From a virus: a stretch of DNA of 27,803 bases. The notes under the pieces were generated by a model that was not told the origin of the DNA, made no database searches, and worked only from the letters and a program-made list of their open reading frames with translations. Numbering within the stretch: the first letter of the stretch is position 1; each line of letters opens with the position of its first letter. The stretch is from positions 1-27,803 of IMG/VR virus record IMGVR_UViG_3300024490_000007; one strand, 5' to 3'. Position numbers and translations under genes: made by a program. This document shows, one piece after another, positions 21,065 to 27,600 of the stretch.

Positions 21065-21291
21065 TGACCTGGGAGCAGATGCGCGCCAACTGGGCGACGT
21101 CGCCCGTGCGGCACGAGGTCAACGGAGCACTTGAGCGTGCCGTCTTTGCGGCGCTGTCGGCGCTGGTGCCAGTGCTCCCCCAGGACGTGCGGCAGAAGGC
21201 TGCAAAGGCTGCGATTGCGGCAGTCGACGAGGCCGTAACGCAGCCGACCAAGATCGAAGCGGGCGGCGTCATTATCACCGACCATCGCTAG
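21064..21291 (+). CDS. Small hypothetical protein closing late arm
   Basis: A protein of 75 residues starting on the last base of the previous stop. It is largely helical and moderately hydrophobic (AVFAALSALVPVL, AAKAAIAAVDEAV), ending in a beta-like tail (IEAGGVIITDHR). It is probably not a true membrane protein. Its last 17 bases overlap the 3' end of the convergent transglycosylase gene. The family is not recognised. Confidence 0.55.
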   Translation: MTWEQMRANWATSPVRHEVNGALERAVFAALSALVPVLPQDVRQKAAKAAIAAVDEAVTQPTKIEAGGVIITDHR

Positions 21292-21697
21292 TCGGCGGCA
21301 GGTGGTGCTGTCGACGGCTGCCGCCGGGCGCTACTCCCCTCTGCGCTCGGCGGTAGCCTTTTGCCAGCGCTAACACGTGCTGGGCATATGCCGCGCCACA
21401 CTCGCCGCGCAAACCTGCGTTGCCGCATCGGTAACCCGCCAGCGCGCGCGACCAGTCGCCGTCGCTCCTGCGGTACCAGTAGGCCAGCAGTCGGGCGCCC
21501 TCTAGCCGGTTGACCGGCGGCACAAACAACGCCCAGCGCGGCACCTCGGCCCAGCGTGGGCAGACTTGCATAACCCCGACGCAGCCAGCTCGCGAGATTG
21601 CCGACCAGGTGCCGCGGCTTTCGGCATGAGTCACGGCATCAAGCATCCCGGCGGGCAGGATGGCAAGCGCAGATAGCCAAGCGGCAAGCAGCGTCAT
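21275..21697 (-). CDS. Secreted or SAR-type lytic transglycosylase (SLT)
   Basis: A protein of 140 residues. An N-terminal hydrophobic segment (LLAAWLSALAILPAGML, residues 3-19) is a signal or signal-arrest-release helix. The SLT fold motifs follow: HAESRG with catalytic Glu26, GVMQV (41-45), and AGYRCGN (87-93), then a long helix. It would cleave glycan strands without water, leaving anhydro sugars. The C-terminus is basic. ATG 21697 overlaps the methyltransferase stop (ATGA). It is the last gene of the leftward arm, separate from the lysis cassette, so it may be a second lysis enzyme or a virion wall-penetration enzyme. Confidence 0.75.
   Translation of the reverse strand: MTLLAAWLSALAILPAGMLDAVTHAESRGTWSAISRAGCVGVMQVCPRWAEVPRWALFVPPVNRLEGARLLAYWYRRSDGDWSRALAGYRCGNAGLRGECGAAYAQHVLALAKGYRRAQRGVAPGGSRRQHHLPPTSDGR
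21293..21326. terminator. GC hairpin between convergent arms
   Basis: CGGCGGCAG at 21293-21301 pairs with CTGCCGCCG at 21318-21326, a 9-bp GC-rich stem with a 16-base loop. It starts two bases after the stop of the last rightward gene, inside the end of the leftward gene. There is no U-tract in either direction. It may be a bidirectional terminator or an RNA-end structure. Confidence 0.45.
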
Positions 21698-22863
21698 GGT
21701 GTCGACCTCAGTGCGGCGTCGATGCGGGCGCCAATCCAGCGGACGACCGGCACAGCCCAGCTATTGCCGAGCGCACGGTATCGCGGACCGTCAGGGCAAT
21801 CCTCGGCTGGACGATTGCGATAGGCAATCTTGCTATAATCATCGGGGAAACCTTGCAATCGCTCGCATTCGCGCACAGTCAGCCGGCGAACCCGGCCTTG
21901 ATTATCAACTAGGATGCGCCCACTGCTGGCATCTTGTCCGTTCAAACCGCCGCCCATATGTGCGCCGTCGGTCAATGCGTTGGAAAGACGCGCAACCCAT
22001 GCCCCACAGCATGACAAGCCATCGAGGGCGGGATCGTAGTGAAGTCCACTAGTCCATTCATCGCACCATGGGCAGATCATGTCCTCGATGCACCAACAGC
22101 CGCATTCGTCCCAATCGGTGCCGTGCTCTCGACATAGCACGCCGCTATCGACTTCATCGCTTCGCGCAAAGGCGCTGGCAGGCTTGCCGCTCCCCTCCTC
22201 TTCGCGTCTCGGCGAACGAATCCCGAGCACGCCTTCGCGCTCAAATAAAGATTCGGTTGGATCGAACCTGTCTCGAGCACCTGCGACAACGAACACACGG
22301 CGGCGTCGTTGGGCCAAGCCGAAATGTTGGGCGTCAAGGACTCGCCACGCGACTGCTCGCGTGGGTCCAAGCACACAACCAGCGTCCGTCCATCGGCGCC
22401 CTGCCGGCTTGAGTGCGCAATCCTCCCCGGCAAGAGCGCCAAGGAAACAGCCGAACGCGTTATCGGGGGTGTTGAGCACGCCGGGGACGTTTTCCCAAAA
22501 GATGACGGCTCGGTCTTGGCCTCGTCCGAGGCGAACAGCGTCAATTGCATCGGCGATCTCCACAAAGGTGAGGGTCAGGTTGCCGCGGGCATCGTCAAGC
22601 GACCGTCGCAGGCCGGCAACGCTGAACGCTTGGCAGGGCGTGCCGCCGCAAAGGAGGTCGGGAGCCTCGACATCGCCGGCGCGAATGCGACCAGGTAGGG
22701 TGGTCATGTCGCCGTGGTTCGGCGTGGCCGGGTAGTGATGCGCGAGCACGGCTGACGGAAACGATTCGATTTCCGAGAACCATGCAGCTCGCCAGCCAAG
22801 CGGCTCCCACGCCACACTTGCGGCCTCAATGCCGCTGCACACGCTGCCGAATCGCAGGCTCAC
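21694..22863 (-). CDS. DNA (cytosine-5-)-methyltransferase
   Basis: A protein of 389 residues that transfers a methyl group from SAM to C5 of cytosine. Motif I is FGSVCSGIEAAS (5-16), motif IV is GGTPCQ with catalytic Cys77, motif VI is ENV (124-126), motif VIII is QRRRRVF (185-191), motif IX is RLTVRECERLQGFP (327-340), and motif X is RYRALGNSWAVPV (361-373). All key residues are present. The target-recognition region carries a cysteine-rich insert (residues 244-286). GTG 22863 follows GGAGG and overlaps the upstream stop. No cognate restriction endonuclease gene is seen, so it is probably a solitary protective enzyme. The recognition site is unknown. Confidence 0.93.
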   Translation of the reverse strand: MSLRFGSVCSGIEAASVAWEPLGWRAAWFSEIESFPSAVLAHHYPATPNHGDMTTLPGRIRAGDVEAPDLLCGGTPCQAFSVAGLRRSLDDARGNLTLTFVEIADAIDAVRLGRGQDRAVIFWENVPGVLNTPDNAFGCFLGALAGEDCALKPAGRRWTDAGCVLGPTRAVAWRVLDAQHFGLAQRRRRVFVVAGARDRFDPTESLFEREGVLGIRSPRREEEGSGKPASAFARSDEVDSGVLCREHGTDWDECGCWCIEDMICPWCDEWTSGLHYDPALDGLSCCGAWVARLSNALTDGAHMGGGLNGQDASSGRILVDNQGRVRRLTVRECERLQGFPDDYSKIAYRNRPAEDCPDGPRYRALGNSWAVPVVRWIGARIDAALRSTP

Positions 22864-22991
22864 GGCACGGCCTCCAGCGTGGTTGCATGAGAATTTTGAG
22901 TGCGATAGTCGTCAAGATACGCTTCACACGGTCGACACAAGAGAACCCGTCGCCCGCGCCTTGACTTGCCGCAACGATAGCAGCCTTTCAT
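22860..22991 (-). CDS. 43-residue zinc-ribbon-like protein
   Basis: A short gene read from ATG 22991 to TGA 22860. The product has CYRCGK and LCRPC, a CxxC...CxxC pair (Cys4, Cys7, Cys19, Cys22) typical of a small zinc ribbon, with basic residues between them. It is coupled at both ends: ATGA with the upstream gene and GTGA with the methyltransferase. That perfect fit between two real genes is the main reason to accept it. It may bind nucleic acid or a partner protein. Confidence 0.6.
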   Translation of the reverse strand: MKGCYRCGKSRRGRRVLLCRPCEAYLDDYRTQNSHATTLEAVP

Positions 22992-23419
22992 GGCGCAGCC
23001 TCCAACGCGGCGACAAGCGCTTCGGCTTCGCTGTCATAAATGGCGCGACCACATCGGTAGTTTCCGCTCCACTTCCATCCATGCGCGTATGGGTGGGCGT
23101 GCAACGTCGGGTCGTGCCGCAGCTCACGAATCAAGGCGAGCAAACAGCCGAGCGTGGCGGGGTCGTCGAGGTCCGGCAGATGGTTCCAGCGCGACTCTCC
23201 GTCGATCTGAATGCCACCGGTAGAGCTGTGAGCTTGGTCATGCCACCCGTATGGGTCGTCGCCTTCAGCTTCGCGCTCATCAAGTGCCAGCTCGATGCAC
23301 GCACCTACGATTGCACATACTCGCCCCTCATACCGAAACAAATCCCCGATAGCTCGCATCCCCGGCATCCATCGCCATCGCTTGCAGGCAACCGCCCGCT
23401 TTGCCAGTTCCGTGGTCAT
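22988..23419 (-). CDS. Hypothetical phage protein
   Basis: A protein of 143 residues with Trp, His and Asp residues and a segment LPDLDDPATLGCLLALIREL (about 81-100) of a type often seen in uncharacterised phage proteins. The remainder includes CAIVGACIELALDERE and a final helix (DSEAEALVAALEAA). No enzyme motif is visible. It is coupled by ATGA to both neighbours. Role unknown; the early arm context suggests DNA metabolism or host takeover. Confidence 0.6.
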   Translation of the reverse strand: MTTELAKRAVACKRWRWMPGMRAIGDLFRYEGRVCAIVGACIELALDEREAEGDDPYGWHDQAHSSTGGIQIDGESRWNHLPDLDDPATLGCLLALIRELRHDPTLHAHPYAHGWKWSGNYRCGRAIYDSEAEALVAALEAAP

Positions 23420-23643
23420 AGCTCGCCATCCTCTAGCCCGACCAGACGCCGGGCAGTCAACCGCGCCTCAAACTCATCGGACGCCCCGCAGTCGCACGGA
23501 CAATCGGCGCGAGTCTCACACCACTGCGCGTGGGGGCCTACTGCCCAATGCCGAATGACTTCGCGCAATCGGCGCAACCGGTCAAGCTCGGGCCAAGTCT
23601 CCACGGCCTCACGCAGCGCGGCGCAGTCAAGCGGCTTGCCCAT
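23416..23643 (-). CDS. Small Cys-rich NEAR-family-like paralog 1
   Basis: A protein of 75 residues. It contains LREAVETWPELDRLRRLR, QWCETRADCPCDCG and a C-terminal ARRLVGLEDG. ATG 23643 is set by GGAGG with six-base spacing; a longer frame upstream has no support. The protein closely resembles the product of 26937-27161: the core LREAVETWPELDRLRRLR is identical and the CxCG and LVGL elements are shared. A shorter relative lies immediately upstream at 23627-23821. The Cys residues could bind a metal. Function unknown. Confidence 0.7.
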   Translation of the reverse strand: MGKPLDCAALREAVETWPELDRLRRLREVIRHWAVGPHAQWCETRADCPCDCGASDEFEARLTARRLVGLEDGEL

Positions 23644-23821
23644 CGCGGACCTCCAGACCGAGCAACCGCCGGGCCTCGTCGCGAGCTTCGTTGTGGTCGG
23701 TGGCTCCGCAGTAGCACCAGACCTCCGCACCAGGCTGCGGCGCGCACCCGTAGGCGTGCTTGATGGGTAGCCAGTCGGCGACGAGCTGTCGGAGCGTTGC
23801 AGTATCAATCTTGGGTTCCAT
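23627..23821 (-). CDS. Small Cys-rich paralog 2
   Basis: A protein of 64 residues beginning at ATG 23821, behind AGGAGA. It contains TLRQLVADW, GAEVWCYCGATDHNEARDEA and RRLLGLE, matching the WC.CG, NEAR and LLGL features of the two related genes at 23416 and 26937. ATGs at 23833 and 23842 are further from a good ribosome site. It overlaps both neighbours by 17 bases. The family is short, with one or two Cys pairs, and may bind metal. Function unknown. Confidence 0.65.
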   Translation of the reverse strand: MEPKIDTATLRQLVADWLPIKHAYGCAPQPGAEVWCYCGATDHNEARDEARRLLGLEVRDGQAA

Positions 23822-24626
23822 GTCTCTCCTCATCGTAAGCACTGCCGGTCGCCGCCGTTGCCACAGCGATAGGTGTACCGGCAGGCTCGCCCACCGTGGG
23901 CGAACTGATAAGGTCGAGCTGCACGGCTGGCGTGCGCTCGTCGAGCAGTGGCCGCACCGGGATTCGGGCGGTCGTCACGCGGTCAATGGCCTTGGCGTGC
24001 GTCTCGGCGTCGAGCTCCGCGCCGACGGCCTGTCGACCCTCCCACAGCGCAGCCAGCAGCGTCGTGCCGCCACCAGCGCAGGGGTCGCATACCAGGTCGC
24101 CGGGGCGGCTGTAATCGCGGACGATGGCGCGCATCAGGTCTAATGGCTTGGCACCCGCGACGGCGCCGTGTTTCTCGCAATGCGACATGTACGCGCCGGG
24201 CAGGCAGCCCCACGTCGCGAACTTGCGGGAGCGCGGACGGGCGACCATGAGCCACACAGTCCAGCTCGACGGGCCATCACCGACGAGACGTGGGCGCGGC
24301 TGGATGATCGGAATAGGCGCGAAGGAGTAGAGCCCCGCCGCGGCGTAGGCCTCCTGATAAACGGGCGCAAGGTCGTGCGATGTCATGGCGCAGATCCAGC
24401 CACGGCAGCAGCCAGCGGCCCAGCGTACAAAGGCGGCAACGTCGTCTGGTGTCCAGTGAGCATATCTCAATTGCCTACGCGCGCTCCTATCCGGCATCCT
24501 GTTTGACTCACGCAGTAAATGATTGACGCCATCATGCGTCCCGGCCCCATACGGCGGGTCCGTGATCACGGCATTGCAGCGGAAGCCGGGCCGGAAGGCC
24601 TCGCGGTAGTGGCCGAGGGTGATCAC
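23805..24626 (-). CDS. Beta-class DNA methyltransferase (N6-adenine/N4-cytosine)
   Basis: A protein of 273 residues with motif IV DPPY at residues 23-26 and motif I DPCAGGGTT at 181-189. The order IV before I defines the beta class. DPPY is most common among N6-adenine enzymes, but N4-cytosine is not excluded. A conserved-looking segment WTPDDVAAFVRWAAG lies between, and KPLDLM precedes motif I. GTG 24626 overlaps the RecT stop and removes an upstream stretch that is only the antisense of recT. No endonuclease partner is seen, so protection of phage DNA from host restriction or regulation is likely. Confidence 0.88.
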   Translation of the reverse strand: MITLGHYREAFRPGFRCNAVITDPPYGAGTHDGVNHLLRESNRMPDRSARRQLRYAHWTPDDVAAFVRWAAGCCRGWICAMTSHDLAPVYQEAYAAAGLYSFAPIPIIQPRPRLVGDGPSSWTVWLMVARPRSRKFATWGCLPGAYMSHCEKHGAVAGAKPLDLMRAIVRDYSRPGDLVCDPCAGGGTTLLAALWEGRQAVGAELDAETHAKAIDRVTTARIPVRPLLDERTPAVQLDLISSPTVGEPAGTPIAVATAATGSAYDEERHGTQD

Positions 24627-25414
24627 GGCTCGGCCTCGACAACGTCGGCCTCGACGGGCTTGCGGTCGGCAAGAAACGCGCGCCAACGCTCGGCGCCGGC
24701 ACCGTCCAGCCACCGTGACAGGGTCAAGCGGGCTTCGGCAGTCATGGCCGACGGCCGCGGCTTGCCCAGCGATTCGCAGAAGGCGGCGGCGTCGTCGTAG
24801 CTCCAGCCGTTTGCGCCAAGCCAAGCGCAGAAGGATACGCGGTCAGCGGCCCAGCTTGCGTGGTGCCCGTCGGCATCGACTGGCGCGGCAGTGGTTACGA
24901 CGGCTACCGGCGCTCCTTCCTCGTCGACGGCGGCGCCAAGCTCCTCGGGTGTGTAGATGACGCCGTGCAGTGCCTCAGAGCAGGCCATGCGGGCCACCTC
25001 CGTGATGGCGCGGGCGCGGAGCATCGCGGCGGGAAAGCTACGCCACACCGACTTGCCGGCGAGGCCTGCGGCCTTGGCGCGGTCGATGGTCCAGCTGACC
25101 TTAAAGCCGTCAAAGCTGGGATCGTCGGCGCGGATCACTTGGGCGTGCGCCTCGCGGTCGTCGCCCCACACGCGCAGCTTGTGGCCAGCTCGACGAACAA
25201 GCGCGGCGATGAGGTCGGCCGACGCGGTCGGCTTGCCTTCAATGACATGGATCGACGTGATCGCCGTCATCATGTCGACCTGAATCGAGCGGGCGTACTC
25301 CATTGCCCAGAGCAGGTTGGCTGGCTGCTTGCGGTACTGCTGCGGCAGCATGCTGCTGTCTGCCAGCGTTCGAGCCAAGGCGAGCTTATCGCCGACGGTT
25401 GCAAGATCTCCCAT
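24623..25414 (-). CDS. recT: RecT-like single-strand annealing protein
   Basis: A protein of 263 residues. The sequence SSMLPQQYRKQPANLL (about 20-35), EYARSIQ, HVIEGKPTASADLIAALVRR and the later MLRARAITEVARMACSEAL follow the pattern of RecT-like annealases in many phages. It would pair complementary single strands during recombination or replication. The C-terminal part (from about 170) is more variable. AGGTG precedes ATG 25414 and overlaps the RecE stop. The gene beside it encodes a RecE-like exonuclease, which supports the assignment. Confidence 0.82.
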   Translation of the reverse strand: MGDLATVGDKLALARTLADSSMLPQQYRKQPANLLWAMEYARSIQVDMMTAITSIHVIEGKPTASADLIAALVRRAGHKLRVWGDDREAHAQVIRADDPSFDGFKVSWTIDRAKAAGLAGKSVWRSFPAAMLRARAITEVARMACSEALHGVIYTPEELGAAVDEEGAPVAVVTTAAPVDADGHHASWAADRVSFCAWLGANGWSYDDAAAFCESLGKPRPSAMTAEARLTLSRWLDGAGAERWRAFLADRKPVEADVVEAEP

Positions 25415-25422
25415 GGTTCACC

Positions 25423-26181
25423 TCAAGCCCAACGTGGCGGTTTCAGTTTGCCGGTGCAGTTCGCAGCCAAGCCCGGCCAGTCGTCGAATTCGACGCACGC
25501 GGCGTAGGTGCGCACGGCCTTGTCCCACAGCACGGCGCCGAACTCAACGAAATCCGCGCCGGCCTCCATAAGGACGACGTCATGCGGTGCCGTGGACGAC
25601 ACAAAGACAAAGATCTTGGGCAGCTCCTTGCCCGTCAGCACGCGCGCCGCTTCGATATAGGCCGCGGCGCTGATGTGATAGCCGAACTGCCACGCCGCGC
25701 GCTGTAGTCCGTCCTCGTCGTCGGCCGAGGTCGTCTTAAGATCGATAATGGCCTGATCCGTGACGCAATCGAGCTTGGCCTTGCAGGGCACGCCGTCGCG
25801 CTCCCACAACACCGGGACTTCGAATCGACCACCGGTCATCAGGTCGCCGGCGCCAGACTGCTCGACCGCGTAGGCCATGGCGTGGGCTTTGTCCATGTCC
25901 GCGGACGACACGCCGATCTTGCCAGCGTTGTCCGCGGCCCACTGCTCGGCCGCAAACTTGCCGTCCTTGGTGCGACGGTCGAAGGCCGGCATAACGGCGT
26001 AACGCTGGGCGAACTGTTGCGGCTCCAACACCAGGCAATGCAGCAGGGTGCCAAACTCCATCGCGGCGGTAGGCTTGGCGGGGTGCTCGCGCTCCCAGCG
26101 ATACCGGGCCGGCGACTTAAGCAAGGTTTTGGCTCCGCTGGCGCTGAGGCGCGGAAGGGCGTGATATTCGCGGTCATCCAT
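25423..26181 (-). CDS. recE: RecE-like PD-(D/E)XK exonuclease
   Basis: A protein of 252 residues with the signature of the DUF3799/RecE-type nuclease: SASGAKTLLKSPARYRWE (about 14-31), MEFGTLLHCLVLEPQQF, CKAKLDCVTD followed by IIDLKTTS (a D-x-K pair typical of the fold), and a Trp/Pro-rich end. It would resect 5' ends so that the annealase can bind. ATG 26181 is preferred over an in-frame GTG at 26187 because GGAGG stands six bases before it. It is paired with the RecT-like gene (8-base gap). Confidence 0.82.
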   Translation of the reverse strand: MDDREYHALPRLSASGAKTLLKSPARYRWEREHPAKPTAAMEFGTLLHCLVLEPQQFAQRYAVMPAFDRRTKDGKFAAEQWAADNAGKIGVSSADMDKAHAMAYAVEQSGAGDLMTGGRFEVPVLWERDGVPCKAKLDCVTDQAIIDLKTTSADDEDGLQRAAWQFGYHISAAAYIEAARVLTGKELPKIFVFVSSTAPHDVVLMEAGADFVEFGAVLWDKAVRTYAACVEFDDWPGLAANCTGKLKPPRWA

Positions 26182-26183
26182 GA

Positions 26184-26330
26184 TCACCCTCCGATGAGCA
26201 GGCAGAAGCCCACGATGACAGCCAGACCGATGATGACGGCCGCGGCGTTGATTACCTCAGCAATGAGCGACTCGCGTCGGGCGGCGGCCTCGGCGCGGCA
26301 GGTGATGCAGTAGCGCGGATCGTGGCGCAT
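26184..26330 (-). CDS. Small membrane protein
   Basis: A protein of 48 residues. Its N-terminus has a CxxC pair (RYCITCRAEAAARRES), then a transmembrane segment (VINAAAVIIGLAVIVGFCLLIG, about 26-47). ATG 26330 is preceded by a GGGGGA ribosome site. Its last codons contain the GGAGG of recE, and it ends just before the exonuclease start. The combination of Cys pair and membrane segment is notable but not diagnostic. Function unknown. Confidence 0.6.
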   Translation of the reverse strand: MRHDPRYCITCRAEAAARRESLIAEVINAAAVIIGLAVIVGFCLLIGG

Positions 26331-26332
26331 GG

Positions 26333-26608
26333 TTATTCCCCCTTGATCAAGAATTTGGCGAACATCGGGAAGCCGCGGCCGATGAGCACAGCGCAGACCC
26401 AGTTCCACACGGCCAGCCGCGCGGCGTCCTGCTGGCAGCTGATAATGAGGTCGGCAAACACGGGGCCGGGCATGCGCTGGTCGCGGTGGGCCTCGGCGCA
26501 CCAGGTCAGCGCGTCGGCGATGCGCCGGGCGGTCATCTTCTGCACTTCTACCGACCTGCGCGCCAGCTCGATTTGGCGGCCTTCTGTTTTGGGGTCGATG
26601 GGCAACAT
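26333..26608 (-). CDS. Hypothetical protein
   Basis: A protein of 91 residues with an N-terminal charged helix (RQIELARRSVEVQKMTARRIADAL), a Trp/Cys-containing middle (WCAEAHRDQRM) and a hydrophobic C-terminal segment (LAVWNWVCAVLIGRGF) that might associate with membranes. It starts behind GGAG in a leader that shares a 24-base element with the gene upstream. Function unknown. Confidence 0.55.
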   Translation of the reverse strand: MLPIDPKTEGRQIELARRSVEVQKMTARRIADALTWCAEAHRDQRMPGPVFADLIISCQQDAARLAVWNWVCAVLIGRGFPMFAKFLIKGE

Positions 26609-26613
26609 GTCTG

Positions 26614-26637
26614 TCTCCGTTGCGGCGTTGCGGGCCG
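26614..26637 (-). repeat. Repeated leader element, copy 1
   Basis: A 24-base element in the leader of the gene starting at 26608, identical at 23 of 24 positions to the one at 26834-26857 (exactly 220 bases apart). It includes the GGAGA ribosome site and a tandem TTGCGG pair on the plus strand. It may be a translation or operator control element. Confidence 0.7.
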
Positions 26638-26641
26638 TGGC

Positions 26642-26827
26642 TTAGACCTGTGCAATGCGGTAGGTGTCGAATTCTTCGCCGCCCCATCGGGCGATCTGCT
26701 CCAGCATGGCCTCGCGCGCCGCTTCACGCGATGAGTAGACGCCCAGCTTGGCGTCGACCCAGCGAGCTTTCTTCGTTCGCGATCCGGCGTTCATGTTGAA
26801 CTTCACGATGAACTTGGGGTACTTCAT
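26642..26827 (-). CDS. Small basic hypothetical protein
   Basis: A protein of 61 residues, basic at the N-terminus (YPKFIVKFNMNAGSRTKKAR), then WVDAKLGVYSSREAAREAML and a C-terminal strand. The layout, a beta pair then a helix, may be a small nucleic-acid-binding or regulatory fold but no family is recognised. It starts at ATG 26827 behind AAAGGAGA, is the first gene after the TTGACA promoter, and shares the leader element with the next gene. Confidence 0.6.
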   Translation of the reverse strand: MKYPKFIVKFNMNAGSRTKKARWVDAKLGVYSSREAAREAMLEQIARWGGEEFDTYRIAQV

Positions 26828-26833
26828 GGTGTG

Positions 26834-26857
26834 TCTCCTTTGCGGCGTTGCGGGCCG
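26834..26857 (-). repeat. Repeated leader element, copy 2
   Basis: Partner of the copy at 26614-26637, one mismatch in 24 bases, and also placed just before a ribosome-binding site and ATG. It lies in the 5' leader expected from the promoter at 26872-26900. Confidence 0.7.
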
Positions 26858-26871
26858 CTGTTGATGTGGCC

Positions 26872-26900
26872 AGCTTAGTGGGTGGCGGAAACGGTGTCAA
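26872..26900 (-). promoter_or_regulatory. Leftward promoter, TTGACA -35
   Basis: On the minus strand a perfect -35 TTGACA (26900-26895), a 17-base spacer and TAAGCT (26877-26872) as a moderate -10. Start would be near 26865, giving a short leader before ATG 26827. It lies in the largest intergenic gap of the leftward arm and probably drives the genes down to 21275. Confidence 0.65.
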
Positions 26901-26914
26901 CACTTTTCTTGAAG

Positions 26915-26937
26915 GGGCAGCAAAAAAAGTTTTGCCC
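26915..26937 (-). terminator. Possible hairpin after paralog 3
   Basis: GGGCA (26915-26919) can pair with TGCCC (26933-26937), with an A/T-rich loop; an alternative pairing of AAAA with TTTT is also possible. It touches the stop of the gene at 26937-27161. There is no clear U-tract after the stem on the minus strand, so terminator status is weak. Confidence 0.3.
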
Positions 26938-27161
26938 TATCCGTCCCGGTTCAGCCCGACCAACTCGCGCGCCATGCGGCGGGCCTCGTTCGCTTTGCCC
27001 CAGCCGCAATTGCAGTCGACGTCGGCGCGGGTCGCGCACCACTGCTCGTGGCTCCGCTCGGGCCACCAGAGGATGACAGCGCGCAGGCGGCGGAGGCGGT
27101 CAAGCTCGGGCCACGTCTCGACGGCTTCGCGCAGGGCTTCGCATGACATGGTTTTCTTCAC
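26937..27161 (-). CDS. Small Cys-rich paralog 3
   Basis: A protein of 74 residues beginning GTG 27161, overlapping the upstream stop (GTGA) and preceded by AAGGAGGTG. It contains LREAVETWPELDRLRRLR (identical to paralog 1), HEQWCATRADVDCNCGWG and NEARRMARELVGL. A 38-base DNA stretch is 34/38 identical to paralog 1 (23579-23616 versus 27097-27134), so the duplication is recent or the genes exchange sequence. Function unknown; metal binding by the Cys residues is possible. Confidence 0.7.
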   Translation of the reverse strand: MKKTMSCEALREAVETWPELDRLRRLRAVILWWPERSHEQWCATRADVDCNCGWGKANEARRMARELVGLNRDG

Positions 27162-27370
27162 GGCTGCACCTCCTTCCTAGGCAGCGTCCGCGGTCGACCG
27201 CCGGGGCCTCGCGACGGTCGCGACGGGTCAAGCTGGCGCAGGCGCTTGCGTAGGGACTTGAGCGCGGCCAACGTCATACCCAGCCGGTGAGCGGCCTCGG
27301 GCAGCGTGGCGCACTGGTCGCAGACGTGGTCGATCCACGCAACGTCGGCGGCGGTTCGGGCTGGTGTCAT
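27158..27370 (-). CDS. Small helix-turn-helix protein
   Basis: A protein of 70 residues. A helix-turn-helix is likely at about residues 22-44 (TLPEAAHRLGMTLAALKSLR), after a Trp/Cys region (DVAWIDHVCDQC), and the C-terminus is basic and Pro/Arg-rich. It may bind DNA and regulate early genes. ATG 27370 overlaps the upstream stop as ATGA. A longer frame running further upstream is an artefact of overlap with the next gene. Confidence 0.65.
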   Translation of the reverse strand: MTPARTAADVAWIDHVCDQCATLPEAAHRLGMTLAALKSLRKRLRQLDPSRPSRGPGGRPRTLPRKEVQP

Positions 27371-27600
27371 CGGATCTCCACGTCGCGCCGGTGTCGGCGG
27401 CAGAAGGTGCATCGCTGGCTGCGGCTGGCCCATCGGTGCGCGGGCAACTGGCACTCGATGACCTGCGCGCGGTACCAGGCCTGATAGTGTGCCATGCACA
27501 GGTTGCGCGCGAATCGCTTGCGGCCGCATTCGGTGCAGGCAGCCGTCGGCGGCAGGATGGTGGGGCGGCCTCGGGGTCGTGTTGAACGGTTGCGGATCAT
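27367..27600 (-). CDS. Small zinc-finger protein
   Basis: A protein of 77 residues, highly basic at the N-terminus. It has CTECGRKRFARNLCMAHYQ (Cys22, Cys25, Cys35, His38), a CxxC...CxxH finger, and a second CTFCRRH (Cys64, Cys67, His70). Small zinc fingers of this type are common in phages and may bind DNA or RNA. ATG 27600 has no ribosome-binding site and lies seven bases after a possible -10, so a leaderless message is possible. It is coupled to the HTH gene by ATGA. Confidence 0.7.
   Translation of the reverse strand: MIRNRSTRPRGRPTILPPTAACTECGRKRFARNLCMAHYQAWYRAQVIECQLPAHRWASRSQRCTFCRRHRRDVEIR

Follow-up and report, generated by a model that had tools for sequence, protein, structure and literature searches.

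A family of small phage accessory proteins with a probable zinc site

Genes at the locus

We examined a 27,803-nucleotide stretch of viral DNA (IMG/VR record IMGVR_UViG_3300024490_000007, here called the window), in which an original prediction had placed a three-member family of small Cys-rich proteins. All three ORFs were found where they had been claimed, on the minus strand, and we refer to them as P1, P2 and P3 (Table 1). Each is preceded by a Shine-Dalgarno-like sequence. The 3' end of P2 overlaps the start of P1 by 17 nt, the stop codon of P1 overlaps the start of the gene we call p143 by 4 nt (ATGA), and P3 starts with a GTG codon after AAGGAGGTG. The upstream side of the cassette carries the exonuclease VIII-like, RecT and N6/N4 methyltransferase genes, and the downstream side carries p143, a zinc-ribbon-like ORF that matched no family, the C5 methyltransferase and a lysozyme-like gene similar to ORFs in most relatives.

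Table 1. Features of the window discussed in the text (all on the minus strand)
Feature	Coordinates	Strand	Description	Basis
Lysozyme-like ORF	21275-21697	-		sequence reading, not family match
C5 cytosine DNA methyltransferase	21694..22863	-	PF00145	
Zinc-ribbon-like ORF	22860..22991	-	43 aa, CxxC...CxxC, between p143 and C5 methyltransferase	sequence reading
p143	22988..23419	-	143 aa, from a large, unnamed family of viral proteins	
P1	23416..23643	-	75 aa, N-terminal hairpin and zinc-site-like module	
P1 putative ligand motif	23488..23532	-	H38-x3-C42-x7-C50-x-C52	alignment
P1 residues 9-27	23563..23619	-	near-invariant N-terminal hairpin	
P2	23627..23821	-	64 aa, short form: one helix, then module	
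P2 putative ligand motif	23708..23758	-	H22-x3-C26-x9-C36-x-C38	alignment
N6/N4 DNA methyltransferase	23805..24626	-	PF01555, upstream of P2	
RecT-like annealing protein	24623..25414	-		
Exonuclease VIII-like	25423..26187	-	DUF3799	
P3	26937..27161	-	74 aa, architecture as P1, other sublineage	
P3 putative ligand motif	27006..27050	-	H38-x3-C42-x7-C50-x-C52	alignment
P3 residues 9-27	27081..27137	-	protein identical to P1	

Small CxxC-type ORFs also occur in the same-strand run (the 43-aa ORF of Table 1, 26184-26330 with 48 aa, and 27367-27600 with 77 aa), and none of them has a sequence relation to P1-P3. The run had been described as an early arm, which is plausible from the RecT and exonuclease genes; because the lysozyme-like ORF ends the same run as these recombination genes, however, the leftward run may not be purely early.

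Both strands of the window commonly carry long open frames, as would be expected if P1-P3 were spurious ORFs in GC-rich phage DNA. We regard that explanation as exceedingly improbable, given the Shine-Dalgarno sequences, the conservation at the protein level and the excess of silent changes across contigs described below. The three genes are real, related and under selection.

A shared module and a conserved hairpin

Local alignment scores, compared with those of 2,000 shuffles, relate all three proteins (z = 34.6 for P1/P3, 14.2 for P1/P2 and 12.2 for P3/P2). P1 and P3 are identical over residues 9-27 (ALREAVETWPELDRLRRLR), a core of 19 residues rather than the 18 originally counted, and the 38-base stretch with 34 matches between their genes was confirmed exactly. 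Despite the 19 identical residues, the codons of P1 and P3 show many silent differences. P2 has only the C-terminal module in common with the other two. It aligns without their first ~16 residues; its "ATLRQLVADW" is the counterpart of their second helix (LRRLREAI..W), its His22-x3-Cys26 aligns with their His38-x3-Cys42, and its "WCYCG" corresponds to their C-x-C-G turn.

These alignments adjust the motifs that had been put forward for the family. The proposed "WC...C.CG" core holds for P1 and P3, whereas the W of P2 stands ahead of its second Cys cluster (EVWCYCG); the "NEAR/AR" helix is EAR in all three copies, and P1 reads FEAR. What P1, P2 and P3 share is H-x3-C-x7..9-C-x-C-G, and the family-wide form is (H/C)-x3-C-x7..9-C-x-C-G with a helix after it. 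An internal repeat (ALREAVETWPE versus RLREAIALWPA) scores above shuffles in L028, P3 and L031, and not in P1, and it can be offered as a suggestion only.

The Cys pattern, whose loss in relatives had been named as grounds for abandoning the family, is kept. In an alignment of 12 sequences, Cys 42, 50 and 52 and Gly53 are invariant and position 38 is His in 10 and Cys in two (the L030 and L031 types), so that four positions are invariably Cys or His, with the spacing and swaps of structural-zinc ligands. Replacement of His by Cys is a poor substitution unless both residues hold metal. The two sequences with Cys share the context P[YF]RTC[DE], and their swap may be a single event. An AlphaFold2 model of P1 (pLDDT 80, pTM 0.58) has helices at residues 7-15, 18-31, 37-45 and 54-67, with H38 and C42 one turn apart on the third helix and C50 and C52 in the turn before the fourth; the block of residues 41-50 has a pLDDT of 65. 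Because the cysteines are invariant, the H/C swap is that expected of a metal ligand and the modelled geometry is suitable, we infer that one structural zinc ion is probably held by the (H/C)-x3-C pair and the C-x-C turn.

The cysteines could instead form a disulfide, bind another metal or make up a redox centre. P1-type proteins do have a further conserved residue, Cys7, with Cys48 as an additional cysteine in P1, but P2 lacks Cys7, a cytoplasmic location is likely, and the HCCC or CCCC positions are invariant with the H-to-C swap among them. We therefore consider a non-zinc function of these residues unlikely.

The two halves of the protein differ in how they evolve. Among seven members, residues 3-27 have a pN of 0.067 and a pS of 0.60 (pN/pS 0.11), whereas residues 28-70 have a pN of 0.30 and a pS of 0.71 (pN/pS 0.42). 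The N-terminal hairpin is thus strongly constrained, far more than the module. Because the two halves are alike in the divergence of their silent sites, the identity of the hairpin reflects selection rather than recent copying or gene conversion. This contrast suggests that the hairpin has a constant binding partner, and that the target of the module varies or matters less. Charge is not consistent across the family (predicted pI 4.9 to 8.9).

Relatives in other contigs

Relatives were found in 12 other IMG/VR contigs: nine of the P1/P3 type, two cut-off copies of P2, and L048 (IMGVR_UViG_3300032224_001305), a 101-kb contig of a different phage. The last encodes a 134-aa protein (L048:2600-3004) in which an unrelated Cys-rich N-terminus is followed by the same module at the C-terminus. 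P1 and L048 are similar in DNA from about P1 residue 26 onward and into p143; exchange between them therefore took place near the module boundary.

A search of whole contigs gave one credible copy in each of the 10 other contigs with a full-length module, and three copies are peculiar to this window. P3 has 97% identity to its counterpart in the nearest relative, L029 (IMGVR_UViG_3300024511_000002), whereas P1 comes closest to L048 (84% over 50 columns) and to L023 and L024 (81%). The family tree is weakly supported and places P2 on a very long branch; a clade of P1 and P3 was nevertheless rejected (AU p = 2e-5), as was one of P1, P2 and P3 (p = 2e-7). We considered local duplication as the origin of P1 and P3 and set it aside, since the genes nearest to each of them are those of other phages. 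The description of the genes as repeated paralogs is accordingly apt for three related copies in the window, but with single copies elsewhere and the P1+P3 clade rejected, the copies seem to have been acquired separately, not produced by local duplication.

Several weaker candidates were discarded. Matches to lysozyme-like ORFs (NCGWGG) reflect composition only, the match at G009:11170 has a stop codon inside it, and that to L129 was also rejected. On the minus strand of L130 (the contig of L088), an open stretch of 25 residues near position 1501 (RKKLSEVPCACGSKRANTARFRTVR) looks like the C-x-C-G...AR portion of the module (E 4e-4), and is possibly a module remnant or a chance likeness.

A region of exchangeable cassettes

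The gene that follows a family member differs between contigs. Where its start overlaps the family stop codon, it belongs to a C5 methyltransferase in both L023 and L026, to a Mom gene (PF25680) in L024:6222-6755, to p143 for P1 of the window and in L048, to a zinc-ribbon ORF in L030 and to ORFs of unknown function in L025 and L031. In L027 and L028 the family gene is followed by a gap and then lysozyme. DNA-modification genes are thus overlapped in L023, L026 and L024, and not at P3 of the window or in L027, L028 and L030. On the 5' side, a 60-aa ORF directly adjoins the family gene in L023, L024, L026, L027 and L028.

On the L029 contig, the counterpart of the methyltransferase at 23805-24626 and the lysozyme-like gene lie ~150 bp apart. 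The same site in the window holds a 2.1-kb block made up of P2, P1, p143, the 43-aa ORF and the C5 methyltransferase. A homologue of this C5 methyltransferase is present in L029 (IMGVR_UViG_3300024511_000002:17218-17877, 90% DNA identity over 661 bp), where it adjoins the counterpart of window position 27597, that is, in a different place. The C5 methyltransferase is thus a mobile cassette and, because the block is absent at the L029 site and this gene sits elsewhere, the P1-P3 region is a shuffling area of exchangeable, translationally coupled cassettes.

One neighbour in this region, p143, belongs to a family of its own in at least 159 viral contigs, often with two or three copies per contig. 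Its members have conserved ends (RAVACKxWRWMPGM, DPATLGCLLALVREAW and EAEALVAALEAAP) and a hypervariable middle. A scan of 46 members gave no Pfam match and no convincing PHROGs match, and a scan of species genomes gave two matches only. The structure model of p143 (pLDDT 85) has a central barrel that is weakly Tudor/SH3-like, and its best structural neighbours include RapA, the UvrD/PcrA Tudor domain and Mfd (Z 5.7 to 4.4; Foldseek E >= 0.24). Because such barrels are common and these Z values do not rise above background, we take the likeness to RNA-polymerase-binding Tudor domains as a lead only.

Comparison with known families

The original prediction recognised no named family, and our searches agree. 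P1-P3 gave no Pfam match up to E 10, no PADLOC or NCBIfam match up to E 1 (PADLOC covers mostly defence, and counter-defence poorly), no significant PHROGs match, only noise among GenBank phages and plasmids, and nothing significant by sequence against the PDB. The model of P1 likewise had no significant structural match, from which a new fold does not follow. Scanning genomes with the family alignment turned up no relative, and profile searches over sets of 284 and 379 genomes gave no hits; having no positive control, these searches show little. We conclude that P1-P3 represent a real, unnamed family of small phage accessory proteins that probably bind zinc.

Three kinds of known protein invite comparison. 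DksA/TraR proteins are small and helical and have a Cys-based zinc site, as is predicted for P1, but the P1-P3 spacing is not CxxC...CxxC, and the likeness of the P1 model to 1tjl (Z 2.8, rmsd 4.7 A) has a Z in the noise. The unnamed small phage zinc-ribbon ORFs, such as the 43-aa ORF of the window, resemble P1-P3 in size, location and Cys content; they carry CxxC pairs, whereas the P1-P3 family carries H/C-x3-C and C-x-C. The third is Com of phage Mu (PF10122), a 62-aa CCCC zinc-finger protein that activates translation of mom (PMC6483171). P1-P3 are, like it, very small phage proteins, of probable zinc type, and three relatives have the family gene running into the start of a DNA-modification gene, which in one case is Mom. 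The CCCC finger of Com is N-terminal and accompanied by a disordered tail; in P1-P3 the (H/C)-x3-C-x7..9-C-x-C arrangement lies between helices, and the downstream gene is not constant.

Possible roles

We tentatively favour, at somewhat less than even confidence, a reading of P1-P3 as zinc-stabilised adaptors, each combining a fixed hairpin for docking with a variable module, that act in protection of phage DNA or in interference with the host. One module of ~45 residues, in which the His/Cys-x3-Cys helix pair and the Cys-x-Cys turn would hold a single zinc, is preceded in P1 and P3 by a near-invariant helical hairpin (residues 7-31). The hairpin would dock on a constant partner, and the module with its tail helix would diversify against a variable target. 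The genes move in exchangeable cassettes, in the company of p143 and DNA-modification genes, and such a protein would most likely serve as a protein-binding adaptor rather than an enzyme. The ligand pattern, the contrast in pN/pS, the recurrence of the module in L048 behind another N-terminus and, once more, immediately ahead of p143, and the nearby DNA methyltransferases and Mom are consistent with the adaptor model. Against it, the adjoining gene varies, charge is not consistent, and the link to DNA protection is one of neighbourhood only.

The other readings draw on much of the same evidence. A role in host takeover or defence evasion, as originally suggested, is possible, the case being circumstantial and resting on the nearby DNA methyltransferases and one Mom gene. 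In its direct form, P1-P3 would be effectors that inhibit a host enzyme, whether of restriction, of another defence or a takeover target. The small size, the non-structural arm, the adjoining modification genes and the faster evolution of the C-terminal half would all suit such effectors, but they resemble nothing in PADLOC, Pfam or NCBIfam, and their N-terminus is the most conserved part, unlike a typical arms-race surface; we think this rather unlikely, if the least so of the alternatives. Regulation of an overlapping DNA-modification gene at translation, as by Mu Com, is quite improbable. The overlaps in L023, L026 and L024 favour it, as does the absence of a Com match (PF10122, Zn_ribbon_Com) from the window and the contigs of six relatives, that of L024 included. 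The variable next gene speaks against it, as do a ligand order unlike that of Com, the failure of PF10122 to match P1-P3, and RNA folding at eight junctions, which gave no support to such regulation (z -1.9 to +1.0 against shuffles, not unusually structured). We give similarly little weight to the idea that P1-type proteins are transcription-associated adaptors working with p143, in view of the likeness of its central barrel to RNA-polymerase-binding Tudor/KOW domains. A module gene overlaps the start of p143 in two distant phages, and RapA, UvrD/PcrA and Mfd are among the structural neighbours of p143; Z values under 6 may nonetheless mean just a common SH3-like barrel (SETDB1 and myosin are also listed), the Foldseek E values are no lower than 0.24, and the module is absent from most p143-bearing contigs. 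A bolder reading, which we hold to be improbable, is that an undescribed zinc-stabilised module is swapped between docking N-termini and shipped with p143-like partners to reach a target in the host, for example RNA polymerase or a restriction system.

P1-P3 add to phage dark matter a clean family of tiny accessory proteins that lends itself to testing, and offer a case of a small protein that evolves by exchanging modules, one half being almost frozen while the other diversifies. The unnamed p143 family is possibly a more useful handle than P1-P3 themselves. Should the frozen hairpin bind a conserved partner, it would be a direct bait for pull-down of that partner.
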